A stretch of 64,000 nt of DNA. Source: Chloroflexota bacterium. Its GTDB lineage: Bacteria > Chloroflexota > Dehalococcoidia > DSTF01 > RBG-16-68-14. The stretch is taken from the NCBI GenBank assembly GCA_003228685.1, contig QIFC01000077.1:1-64000 (forward strand), read 5' to 3'. The translations under genes and the position numbers were made by a program. This document shows positions 13,738 to 18,342 of this stretch, piece by piece (the stretch's first letter is position 1; each line of letters opens with the position of its first letter). The notes under the pieces are model-generated. The model was not told the DNA's origin and ran no database searches. It saw only the letters and a program-made list of their open reading frames with translations.

Positions 13738-14493
13738 ATGGCTGTATCTGAGCAACCACCAGGCCCAGGAGTAGCGGGCTGGCTGTCCGATAAGCTCTTC
13801 AACAACTACATCTGGCGCTCCATCTTCCGTTCGGGTTACCCGAACACGCCGCGAAACCAGATGCTGGTGGTCGCGACCAACGTCTTCCTGCACTTGCATC
13901 CAACGCGGCTGCATAAGACGCACGTTCGCATCACGCACACGTACTGCCTGGGCGGCCTCACGTTTTTCTTTTTCTTGGTCCTGACCGTCACCGGCGTGAT
14001 GCTGATGTTCTATTACGTGCCGGCGGCGGACCGCGCGTTCCAGGACGTGGCCGCGCTGGAGACGAATATCCGCTTCGGCATGCTCATGCGGAATCTTCAT
14101 CGCTGGATGGCGCATGGGATGGTGATCTCGGTCTTCCTACACATGATGCGTGTGTTCTACACCGGCTCATACAAGCCGCCGCGAGAATTCAACTGGCTCG
14201 TCGGCGTCATTTTGCTGACGCTTACCCTGGCGTTGAGCTTCACTGGCTACCTCCTCCCATGGGACCAGCTCTCAATCTGGGCGGTCACCGTGGGAATGAA
14301 CATGGCGGGCACTGTCCCAGTCATGGGCGAGCAGTCCCGCTTCATACTCCTCGGAGGCTTTGAGGTAGGAGACGCCGCGCTCATTCGCTTCTATACGTTG
14401 CATGTAATCGGCCTGCCGCTGCTTGCCGCCATCTTCATGGCGGTTCACTTCTGGCGTATCAGGCGTGATGGTGGCCTCGCGCGGCCTTTGTAA
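13738..14493 (+). CDS. petB: Cytochrome b6-type subunit of a bc complex
   Basis: 251 residues, four core helices. Haem ligands are His121 and His135 (13 residues between) and a second His pair near the C-terminus (LHVIG then AVHFW) with 14 residues between, the b6-type spacing. Cys70 in YCLGG corresponds to the cysteine that holds the extra haem c(n) in b6 and Bacillus-type cytochromes. It forms the quinol-oxidising core with the next gene, which provides the C-terminal half of cytochrome b. The split-gene arrangement (b6 plus subunit IV) is the b6f/Bacillus type. The symbol is used by analogy; qcrB is the alternative name. Confidence 0.9.
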   Translation: MAVSEQPPGPGVAGWLSDKLFNNYIWRSIFRSGYPNTPRNQMLVVATNVFLHLHPTRLHKTHVRITHTYCLGGLTFFFFLVLTVTGVMLMFYYVPAADRAFQDVAALETNIRFGMLMRNLHRWMAHGMVISVFLHMMRVFYTGSYKPPREFNWLVGVILLTLTLALSFTGYLLPWDQLSIWAVTVGMNMAGTVPVMGEQSRFILLGGFEVGDAALIRFYTLHVIGLPLLAAIFMAVHFWRIRRDGGLARPL

Positions 14494-14496
14494 TCG

Positions 14497-15483
14497 ATGG
14501 CCGTAGACGCTCGGGCAGTCTCTAGCACACCGGCCGCCACCCGGCCACGCCGCGAACGAGACCAAGAACTCCTCGTTTGGCCAGACCTCGTATTCATCGA
14601 GTTCATCGCTGCGACGGTCTTCCTGCTCCTGTTCGTCATCCTCTCAACGCTTCTGGACGCGCCGCTGCTGAACCAGGCCAACCTAGACATCACGCCTAAC
14701 CCGTCTAAGGCCGCCTGGTATCTAGTTGCCCTTCAGGAGCTACTGCTGCACATGCACCCGGCGCTTGGTGGCGTGATCGCGCCGACGTTCGCGCTGATTA
14801 TCATTGGAGCCTTCCCCTATGTCGACCGTTCCAATGAAGGCCAAGGCGCTTGGTTCTCCACGGAAAACGCCATAAAGATTACGCTCTTCTCGGCCGCCTT
14901 CGCTTCGATTCTTACAGTCGCGCTTATCCTGTACGACCAGGGACGCCACGTTAATGTCGTGACGAGCATCGCCCAGGAGTTTGACAAAGACTGGCGGTGG
15001 CCGGGCAAGCTTTCGGCGTTCCAGAATGTGCGGGCTATCCAGACGGGTTGGGAGTGGAGCATCCCAGTGCCGGAATCGGCCCAGCTCGGCCCAGGGGAAC
15101 ATGACGGCGAGCTGAACTGGCCGGATGACTTCACGCACGTCCCCATGCCGTTTAACGGCACCAGCGGCCCGGATTGGATGCGCTGGGGCCCGCCGTCGTT
15201 CTTACCGGGCTGGCTGCAGGCGCTGTACTGGTATGATCTCAACATGAATACGCCGGCGTTTGTCGTCGAGCTGTTCATCCCGGTCGCCGTCATGGTGACA
15301 TTGCCCGTAATCATGATCCTCATGCTGATGAGGCTCGGCTGGGTGAAGAATATACGCGACGGATCGATCGGGATCTTCACCGGAATGATGACCGTCTATT
15401 TCATCCTCACGATTATCGGTGCTGGGTTTCGTGGGGCAGGGCAGGACCTCGTCTTGCCTTGGGACGTCCCGCACATCGACTAG
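14497..15483 (+). CDS. petD: Subunit IV-like C-terminal cytochrome b, enlarged
   Basis: 328 residues, twice the usual length of subunit IV. The first part has the helix following LVWPDLVFIEFIAATV. A loop of roughly 100 residues, rich in Trp and Pro, precedes two further helices (FVVELFIPVAVMVTLPVIM and GMMTVYFILTIIG). The PEWY-like motif of the quinol site is not obvious; a candidate region is KAAWYLVALQELLLHMHP, comparable to PEWYFLFAYEIL in other cytochromes. It starts 4 nt after petB. The long loop is probably extracytoplasmic and could dock the Rieske protein or cytochrome c domain encoded downstream. Confidence 0.8.
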   Translation: MAVDARAVSSTPAATRPRRERDQELLVWPDLVFIEFIAATVFLLLFVILSTLLDAPLLNQANLDITPNPSKAAWYLVALQELLLHMHPALGGVIAPTFALIIIGAFPYVDRSNEGQGAWFSTENAIKITLFSAAFASILTVALILYDQGRHVNVVTSIAQEFDKDWRWPGKLSAFQNVRAIQTGWEWSIPVPESAQLGPGEHDGELNWPDDFTHVPMPFNGTSGPDWMRWGPPSFLPGWLQALYWYDLNMNTPAFVVELFIPVAVMVTLPVIMILMLMRLGWVKNIRDGSIGIFTGMMTVYFILTIIGAGFRGAGQDLVLPWDVPHID

Positions 15484-15492
15484 GCCTAGGTG

Positions 15493-16218
15493 ATGACAGA
15501 ACAAGATAAGACAGACGAAACGCTGGACGAAAGCGCGGCCACGAAAGGCGAAGCAACAGAGCAGCCCGCCGCCAAGGCTGCCGAGGCTCCTAAGGTGGCC
15601 GCCAAGCCGGCTGCTAAGCCAGCCAAGAAAGAGAAGGAGCCAGCCCCGCCCGGTGGTCCACCAACCGCCGTCGTTGAGCAGAAAAGGGTACCTGGCTCCC
15701 CTGTCGTGTCACGGAGGCGCGTCCTGCAGATTGGCATCTGGGGCGGAATCGGCGCGGCCGTTGCGGCGATGGGTGCGAGCTTCGTGGACTTTGTCTACCC
15801 TCGCAACGTCTCCGGCTTCGGCGGCACTGTGTCTGTTGCCGCGGTCGCGGTCCCCTCGCCTGGACAAAAGGTACAGGTCCCCGCCGGCCGATTCTGGCTC
15901 GTCAACCTGACTGAGGAGCAGGGCGGGCCCGGCTTGCTCGCCCTCTGGTGGAAGTGTCCGCACCTGGGCTGCACCGTTCCCTGGAAGCCAAACTTTGTTT
16001 GGCCGGACCCGACGACGGGCGCAGACACGAAGGGCTGGTTCCGCTGCCCCTGTCACGGTTCGACCTACACACATGCCGGTGTGCGCGTCTTCGGCCCTGC
16101 GCCACGTCCATTGGACACCATGGATCTAAAGATCGGTTCTGATGGCCGCGTCACAGTCAATACAGGCGATGTGACACCAGGCGCTTCCGACAACCCTGAA
16201 CGTGCCGTACGGATATAG
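15493..16218 (+). CDS. Rieske iron-sulfur protein
   Basis: About 241 residues. A very long, Ala/Lys/Pro-rich cytoplasmic N-terminus of about 70 residues comes before a twin-arginine-like RRR and a single hydrophobic helix. The Rieske domain carries both boxes: CPHLGC near residue 155 and CPCHGS near residue 185, so the 2Fe-2S ligands (Cys, His, Cys, His) and the disulfide cysteines are all present. It takes one electron from quinol at the b6 subunit and passes it to the c-type domain encoded next. A GTG at 15490 is an equally possible start. Confidence 0.93.
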   Translation: MTEQDKTDETLDESAATKGEATEQPAAKAAEAPKVAAKPAAKPAKKEKEPAPPGGPPTAVVEQKRVPGSPVVSRRRVLQIGIWGGIGAAVAAMGASFVDFVYPRNVSGFGGTVSVAAVAVPSPGQKVQVPAGRFWLVNLTEEQGGPGLLALWWKCPHLGCTVPWKPNFVWPDPTTGADTKGWFRCPCHGSTYTHAGVRVFGPAPRPLDTMDLKIGSDGRVTVNTGDVTPGASDNPERAVRI

Positions 16219-16251: not shown

Positions 16252-18342
16252 ATGGACACCGGCAAGCAGATCAATGCCATGGTCGTTGTCCTGCTCCTGA
16301 CCGTCATTGCGGTCGGGTTCTATGCGTTGTTCGACCCCTTCCGGGCCGGCAAGGCCGAGGACGACCAGCTCGTGAAGTCAGCCGAGCGCGGCGCCAACTC
16401 GTTCGCGCTCAACTGTCGCATTTGCCACGGAGACCGCGGCCAAGGCGGCGTCGCAGGAGGCCGGCTGCCGGCCGCGGTTGCGCTGGACCGCCCAGGGCTG
16501 CGCGGCATTGAAAACGGATCCTTCAGCACTGCGGCATTCAACGAAGACTTCCTCATGATTATGAATACCATCACGTGTGGCCGGGCGGGTACCGCGATGC
16601 CTACCTGGGGTCGTGTGCATGGTGGAACGCTTAGCCAGGAGCAGATCCGCCAGGTCGCCGTGGTGATTACGGGTGGCGACGTGGGCGCCGATCCCCTGCG
16701 GGAAGGCGGCTTTTGGGATGAAGCCCAAGATCACGCCGATGAGCTGGATGCCGAGACGACATTACATTCAACGCTCCAGATGCCTGGAGGCGCGCTGAAC
16801 TCCACGGAGATTGAACTAACCGTGAGCAACGCCGCGCCGATGGCTGAGGATCAGTACCTCCGCATTGACGAAGAGCGCATGCAGATCGTTGAGATTCCGT
16901 CGACCGGACAGCGTCTGGTCCGCAGTGTTGGCCGTGTGCCGGACGAGTTCTACGTCAGCGGCGCCGCTGGTATCGCGATCGGTGAAATCATTCGCATTGA
17001 TTCAGAGCTGCTCGAAGTTACCGGCCTGCGTGCGGATGGCGACCTCTCGATCGCGTTGGACACGTCGGTCGGGTCATCAGACGTCGTGATCTCAGTCGAT
17101 AACCCAGCTTTCTTCACGGCCGGCGATGTCGTTCACGCCGGCAGCGAACAGATTGAGATCGAGGGCGCAGTCGATACCGGCCAGGTGCTCGCAATCGCCA
17201 CGGGCCGCGCTCAGACGACGATCTCCGTCAGCGGCTCAGCCGGCATTGAGGTGGGCGCTCGCATTCGCATGGGCGAAGAGCTGCTCGAAGTCCTCAGCAT
17301 CGAGCCGGCGACAGCAACGCTCGAACGCGGAGCGGACGACCTTGATGGCAACGGGACGAACGCGGCCGCACACACCTCCGGCGCGCAGATTCTTAAGCTC
17401 GTCGAGGAACCGGACGAGGACGCGGATGTTGAACCGGAGGACCCGGACACCGGCCAGACTCTGCTCGAGACGCTGAGCGCTGATGCCACAACGGCGGTCG
17501 TAAGCGGCACCACCGGAATCTCAGCTGGCGAAACGTACCAGATCGGCAGCGAGTTGGTGCGCGTAACGGATACCCAGCCCGCGGTGCTGCGCGTGGAACG
17601 TGGCGTTGGCGGCACTGAGCGCGCGGCGCACTCGCGGCGCGTGGCTATTTTCGATGACAACTTCCTCTCCGTCGAGCGAGGTGTCCTTGGCACGGCAGCA
17701 ACGGCGCACGATGCCGGCACAGACCTGCTCTTCGACGTGATTGAAGTAGAGCGCGAAGTGCTGGGCACGAAGGTTGAGGACCACACCAAGAACGCTGAGT
17801 TGTTCCTGGGCAGCGTCATCATCGTGGAGCGAGGGGTGCTCAACTCGGAGCCTGCCGAGCACGAGAACGGCACACTTGTGATGGACTTCCCGGCCCCGCT
17901 GGACCCAGACACGGTCATTACCACCGGCCCAACCTGCGGCCAGAACCCACCTCTCATCGCGGATGCGACGGAGGGTCCTTCCGCGACGCCACGGGAGGGT
18001 GCTACGCAGGTCAGGATATTGCTGACCGAGTGGGGGGCCCTGGCAGATCCCAGCTCGGTTCCCGAAGGACCTGTCGATTTCACAGTGGTCAACGACGGCG
18101 CAGTCGTCCACAACTTCCGCATCGTCGCTACCGATCTGGCGCCGGACGCGCTCCCGGTCGATGGCCCGGTGATGGATGAAAGCCGGGTCGACGTTGTGGG
18201 AGGCTTTACGGGCGCGCTGGTCGGCGGTGATGAAAGGTTCGTCAGCGCCGACCTACCTCCTGGCAACTACGTGCTCTTGTGCAACGTGCCCACCCACTAC
18301 AGCCTGGGCATGGTCACCAGCTTCGAGGTGACAGGCCCGTAG
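16252..18342 (+). CDS. Cytochrome c / beta-repeat / cupredoxin fusion protein
   Basis: 696 residues with an unusual domain order. A membrane anchor covers residues 8-28. A class I cytochrome c domain follows, with CRICH at 55-59 as haem site and Met116 (GTAMPTWG) as probable sixth ligand. Residues about 150-565 hold four or five degenerate beta-repeats of the form ERGVLGTxAxxHxxG, a motif otherwise familiar from phage tail and surface proteins. The C-terminal domain looks like a type 1 copper protein: His620, then Cys677, His682 and Met687 in LLCNVPTHYSLGM. It probably accepts electrons from the Rieske protein and hands them to copper and then to an oxidase. The last gene of the core bc operon. 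Confidence 0.85.
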   Translation: MDTGKQINAMVVVLLLTVIAVGFYALFDPFRAGKAEDDQLVKSAERGANSFALNCRICHGDRGQGGVAGGRLPAAVALDRPGLRGIENGSFSTAAFNEDFLMIMNTITCGRAGTAMPTWGRVHGGTLSQEQIRQVAVVITGGDVGADPLREGGFWDEAQDHADELDAETTLHSTLQMPGGALNSTEIELTVSNAAPMAEDQYLRIDEERMQIVEIPSTGQRLVRSVGRVPDEFYVSGAAGIAIGEIIRIDSELLEVTGLRADGDLSIALDTSVGSSDVVISVDNPAFFTAGDVVHAGSEQIEIEGAVDTGQVLAIATGRAQTTISVSGSAGIEVGARIRMGEELLEVLSIEPATATLERGADDLDGNGTNAAAHTSGAQILKLVEEPDEDADVEPEDPDTGQTLLETLSADATTAVVSGTTGISAGETYQIGSELVRVTDTQPAVLRVERGVGGTERAAHSRRVAIFDDNFLSVERGVLGTAATAHDAGTDLLFDVIEVEREVLGTKVEDHTKNAELFLGSVIIVERGVLNSEPAEHENGTLVMDFPAPLDPDTVITTGPTCGQNPPLIADATEGPSATPREGATQVRILLTEWGALADPSSVPEGPVDFTVVNDGAVVHNFRIVATDLAPDALPVDGPVMDESRVDVVGGFTGALVGGDERFVSADLPPGNYVLLCNVPTHYSLGMVTSFEVTGP

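Follow-up and report, generated by a model that had tools for sequence, protein, structure and literature searches.

A membrane-anchored cytochrome c with phage-tail-type repeats and a C-terminal cupredoxin closes a cytochrome bc operon in a Chloroflexota genome

Our analysis of a 64,000 nucleotide stretch of Chloroflexota DNA (the window; contig QIFC01000077.1) concerns a gene at positions 16252..18342, whose 696 amino acid product combines a cytochrome c domain, repeats of the phage tail type and a cupredoxin, as judged from its sequence, its orthologues and a structure model. All features located below by window coordinates lie on the + strand. The gene closes an operon that also contains a cytochrome b6 gene (13738..14493; Pfam Cytochrome_B, 2.1e-47) with the YCLGG cysteine that b6f-type (heme ci) cytochromes typically have, a subunit IV-like gene that corresponds to the C-terminal half of cytochrome b (14497..15483; Pfam Cytochrom_B_C, 1.1e-4, over the cut-off), and a Rieske iron-sulfur protein gene (15490..16218; Pfam Rieske, 3.9e-7; CPHLGC...CPCHGS). 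Beyond it lies a gap of about 495 bases before the next gene, in agreement with the preliminary description of this DNA, which called it the last core gene of a bc operon. A search for the same fusion in other genomes, which that description had proposed, found five full-length orthologues in separate MAGs (52–79% identity) with every domain in the same layout; since the whole architecture is kept in these genomes, the fusion is not an assembly artefact. The relatives that occur in named records are all from Chloroflexota MAGs, several of them labelled Dehalococcoidia. Scans of promoters and terminators gave no matches above chance level, and a search for anti-phage defence gave no match. The same genome encodes a second cytochrome b-like protein (G000:C31, L129:2831-3955), next to which no Rieske gene was recognised.

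The N-terminal part of the protein has the properties by which a cytochrome c subunit of a bc/b6f-type complex is known: its gene lies with those for cytochrome b and the Rieske protein, and it carries a membrane anchor, a CxxCH motif and a conserved Met ligand. The anchor is a transmembrane helix (about AAs 8–28, 16273..16335) that is seen in the sequence and is a helix in the structure model, and the cytochrome c domain follows at 16369..16686, with CRICH at AAs 55–59 and Met116 as the likely axial ligand (C55, C58, H59 and M116 are invariant in the family alignment). Pfam Cytochrome_CBB3 matches the 696 AA protein with an E-value of 3.8e-5, at 24.4 bits slightly under the curated cut-off of 27, and in the genome search it gives 27 bits, which is at the cut-off. 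The anchored cytochrome c that had been read from the letters alone is thus borne out.

At the other end of the protein the structure prediction shows the fold of a cupredoxin. This domain (AAs 582–695, 17995..18336) is auracyanin/SoxE-like (Foldseek 1.0e-6); residues 581–695 of the AlphaFold model align with auracyanin 6kol at Z 12.3 (rmsd 3.2, 111 residues aligned), and rusticyanin matches as well. The preliminary description had proposed a type 1 copper domain and named a missing copper site as the result that should overturn it; the complete ligand set is present, with His620 (18109-18111) followed by Cys677, His682 and Met687 in the loop CNVPTHYSLGM (18280..18312), and all four ligands are kept in 6/6 family members. 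These conserved residues, together with those of the N-terminal domain, suggest that the protein holds one type 1 copper and a c-type heme. Pfam SoxE scores the fused cupredoxin at 14.3 bits, under its gathering cut-off of 21, whereas an oxidase-linked paralogue (L078:3855-4586) exceeds that cut-off with 24.1 bits. A cupredoxin tree whose deep branches are poorly resolved suggests, and no more, that this family's fused copies group together (support 88/90). Elsewhere (L004) a SoxE-like cupredoxin is fused to an apparent periplasmic amino-acid-binding protein and a dockerin-like stretch.

Between the two redox domains lies an array of tail-type beta repeats (AAs 171–550, 16762..17901). A complete unit consists of a beta half-unit and then an ERG..GT..H hairpin, and the array has two of these, together with three more half-units and three more hairpins. 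Complete unit 1 (AAs 320–380, 17209..17391) is matched by a repeat HMM at 1.8e-20 (2.7e-19 in the genome search) and complete unit 2 (AAs 411–466, 17482..17649) at 1.7e-21 (3.4e-20 in the genome search); the three additional hairpins (AAs 464–542, 17641..17877) are apparent in the sequence, and 2/3 of them reach the HMM threshold. There are therefore five hairpins, four of them close in sequence to the motif and one expanded (ERGADDLDGNGTNAAAH), in keeping with the "four or five ERGVxGTxAxxHxxG repeats" counted originally, and five half-units are interspersed among them (for example TTISVSGSAGIEVGARIRMGEELLEVL). The HMM recognises seven stretches of the protein in all (E-values from 1.7e-21 to 6.5e-3) and, when run across the whole genome, matches no other protein, so a repeat family dispersed through this genome is ruled out. 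Repeat dN/dS values of 0.17–0.35, for which some dS values are near saturation, indicate purifying selection.

The likeness of these repeats to phage tail proteins, which the preliminary description had noticed, is supported by matches to PHROG tail/virion families and to viral structural models. The array alone matches PHROG 4406 (4.5e-6). L029 (a member of another family in the same order) matches PHROG 1101 (3.6e-13), and tblastn with the L029 unit finds cyanophage tail proteins (2e-6). Comparison of these sequences thus supports a relationship between the repeats and phage tail/virion proteins. The AlphaFold model of the repeats alone is poor (pLDDT 48); it matches the phage JBD30 baseplate (Z 7.3, 75 residues aligned) and the lambda tail tip (Z 4.2), matches that are no more than consistent with a tail-type fold, and a PDB search with this same poor model gave no match at E 0.001. 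In L029 and in L030, of the same family, one complete repeat lies at AAs 100–155, inside the cytochrome domain, after CxxCH and before the Met ligand; the unit can therefore be inserted into a loop.

An alignment-based scan of genome contigs found relatives of the protein (a single-sequence scan gave no matches). In all, 83 distinct proteins were collected, nearly all of them homologues from the same class; 80 of these could be scored for cysteines. The Rieske gene directly precedes every class homologue for which there is enough upstream sequence, and b6 with the YCLGG motif lies upstream of every one with enough sequence. What sets these proteins apart is a pair of extra cysteines. In the window protein the first is Cys109 (16576..16578), seven residues before Met116 in the context TCGR..G..MP.W, and the second is Cys562 (17935..17937) in a CGQ motif; each is invariant and co-occurs with the other. 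Among the 80 scored proteins 70 have both, nine have neither and one (L094) ends at a contig edge. The nine are class members with extra heme domains, and the pair is present in 70/70 complete class homologues of the present type, sequences that share ancestry and so do not represent 70 independent events. Sixteen homologues from other Chloroflexota classes were read as well; both cysteines are absent from every one, and all are diheme except one with three cytochrome domains. The spacing between the two cysteines ranges from 65 to 511 AAs (CV 0.57), while the stretch between the second cysteine and the copper Cys stays within 96–137 AAs (CV 0.11), and the two spacings are uncorrelated (Spearman rho 0.06, 49 proteins). 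Because the cysteines co-occur while insert length varies and the distance to the copper holds steady, we infer that a C109–C562 disulfide clamps the terminal carrier to the cytochrome and that the inserts loop out; around both cysteines the full-length AlphaFold model is of low confidence (residues 112–122 and 556–577).

The slot between the cysteines is filled in very different ways. It holds a short linker, one to eight repeat stretches, three LysM domains (L028; Pfam 1.3e-26) or a helical-looking segment (L025), and the repeat HMM finds 0–8 stretches across the class; even among close relatives the count is not fixed, since L011 (757 AAs) has one extra unit. Long inserts between the cysteines are also present in the bc-operon cytochromes L104–L107 and L122, as in L028; Pfam identifies LysM in L028, and the inserts of the others may be of the same kind. 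The part that follows the second cysteine varies as well. It is a SoxE/auracyanin-type cupredoxin in the window protein's family, L024 and L051, a plastocyanin-type cupredoxin in L012 and L020, two cupredoxins in L026 and L027, and a second cytochrome c in place of the cupredoxin in 14 class members; seven others (L025, L054, L057, L064, L070, L071 and L108) keep the cysteine pair along with a long insert that looks helical, yet lack a second carrier. Because the subunit is diheme outside the class, the cupredoxin appears to have taken the place of the second heme within the class.

The genome encodes two A-type oxidases, with cupredoxins related to the fused domain about 1–2.5 kb from each, and in 5/5 family genomes searched a SoxE-like cupredoxin is on the same contig as oxidase subunit I, 1–9 kb apart. 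One oxidase subunit II of this genome (L079:7282-8343) itself has an extra C-terminal plastocyanin-type cupredoxin. Because related free cupredoxins adjoin aa3-type oxidases, the fused cupredoxin probably donates electrons to an oxidase of this type. A search with two Pfam families finds only three c-type domains in the genome, which is ~87% complete, so that a soluble cytochrome c could be absent from the assembly; the other two domains are in unrelated operons, one with NrfD-like and ferredoxin-like proteins and one in a long protein that adjoins a CopC-like gene. Circumstantially, these observations agree with a route on which copper proteins bring electrons to the oxidase. A long protein (812 AA open reading frame, L083:801-3236) has an N-terminus that looks CopC-like and, towards its C-terminus, a cytochrome c domain; it adjoins another CopC-like gene.

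The account that we favor, with moderate confidence, is that the 16252..18342 gene supplies a b6-type bc complex with its cytochrome c subunit, in which a cupredoxin is the second carrier. Electrons from quinol would travel from the Rieske center by way of the N-terminal heme, and next the type 1 copper, to CuA of an aa3-type oxidase, and the cupredoxin would do the job of the second heme in actinobacterial QcrC. The Cys109–Cys562 disulfide would fasten the cupredoxin at its base to the cytochrome. Because it would join both ends of the insert, the tail-type repeats should exit and re-enter at a single place, forming a looped-out side domain, and the distance that electrons must travel would be set by the linker of ~20 residues after Cys562 and not by the repeats. 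What the repeats do is the most speculative part of this account; by analogy with the LysM domains that occupy the same slot in relatives, our leading guess is that they may be in contact with the cell envelope or with a partner complex.

A different arrangement was proposed in the preliminary description: a wired arm that may take electrons from the Rieske protein to an oxidase or outward, in which the repeats serve as a rigid, fixed-length spacer placed in series between the two carriers. Both the domain order of the chain and the good conservation of the array within the family (the low dN/dS values above) fit such an arm. On the other hand, the repeats number from 0 to 8, and LysM domains or a helical segment can stand in for them; C109 and C562 are retained together over 65–511 intervening residues, the distance from C562 to the copper is independent of insert length, and a cofactor-free array of ~380 residues would demand large motions for electron transfer. 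The fixed-length spacer is thus probably wrong, and we think the arm as a whole unlikely. The part of that proposal which survives is a probable path from the Rieske protein through heme and copper to an oxidase; a non-exhaustive search found no support for export of electrons to the cell exterior. A tentative possibility, which leaves the redox part of our favored account intact, is that the repeats serve as a module for envelope contact and anchor the bc complex at the cell wall, an S-layer or a glycan. LysM is a peptidoglycan-binding family, and the presence of three such domains in the L028 slot is what such a module should lead one to expect, as are homologous repeats in surface-exposed phage tail proteins; however, the phage matches are in structural proteins (such as a tail sheath stabiliser) that are not proven receptor-binding tips.

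Two further readings concern the cysteines and the copper. With C109 only seven residues from Met116, reduction of the pair could change heme ligation or free the cupredoxin, and the cysteines could then be a regulatory redox switch and not a structural clamp; but cysteine pairs of exported proteins that are so strictly conserved are usually structural, and we consider a switch improbable. Copper delivery proteins also occur near oxidase genes, as the relatives of the cupredoxin do, so the domain might be a copper store or a chaperone for CuA assembly. The full type 1 His-Cys-His-Met set in 6/6 family members speaks against such a role, as does the second cytochrome c, an electron carrier, that occupies the cupredoxin's place in relatives; we regard storage or delivery as very improbable and the reading of the protein as an electron carrier as probably right.

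The link between a bc complex and an oxidase is a core step of respiration, and here it appears to have been rebuilt within the same subunit, with a blue copper domain for the second heme, while repeats of the phage tail type are present within a respiratory protein. The cysteine clamp appears to let unrelated domains sit beside the electron path. It is conceivable, though we hold the idea only loosely, that the subunit is a modular chassis, in which a class-specific clamp admits foreign domains without lengthening the electron path, exits of heme and of two copper types are swapped, and the phage-type repeats tie the complex to the envelope or a partner. The relatives are in any case a natural set of variants (0–8 repeats, LysM or helical inserts, heme or copper exits) for probing electron-transfer distance and the gain of domains by respiratory subunits.

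Among the papers searched, none reports a fusion between a bc cytochrome and a cupredoxin. Several known systems share parts of the arrangement. In the actinobacterial bcc-aa3 supercomplex, electrons pass from the Rieske protein to the first and then the second heme of the diheme cytochrome cc QcrC and on to CuA without a soluble cytochrome c (PMC8361435). Like QcrC, the protein analysed here is a membrane-anchored bc subunit that would have two carriers; unlike QcrC, it has a single CxxCH with a cupredoxin as the probable second carrier, carries the extra cysteine pair and inserted modules, and belongs to a separate sequence family (the NCBIfam QcrC model gives 21.1 bits against a cut-off of 200). 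In other Chloroflexota classes, the diheme cytochrome c subunits of bc complexes are homologous to it in their N-terminal domain, but they have no cysteine pair and no comparable inserts, and their second domain is a cytochrome c. In the same phylum, cytochrome c and cupredoxin are also joined in some of the cytochrome–nitrite reductase fusions of Chloroflexi (PMC8756737), which are denitrification enzymes and not bc subunits. The best matches of the L029 unit, cyanophage tail proteins (gp15 tail sheath stabiliser and tail sheath), are ~34–38% identical to it over that one unit, but they are parts of virions that have no redox domain. Auracyanin and sulfocyanin (SoxE) have the same cupredoxin fold and ligands, and auracyanin, the closest solved structure, is also from Chloroflexota; these are separate proteins, whereas the present cupredoxin is fused to its cytochrome and falls under the SoxE cut-off.
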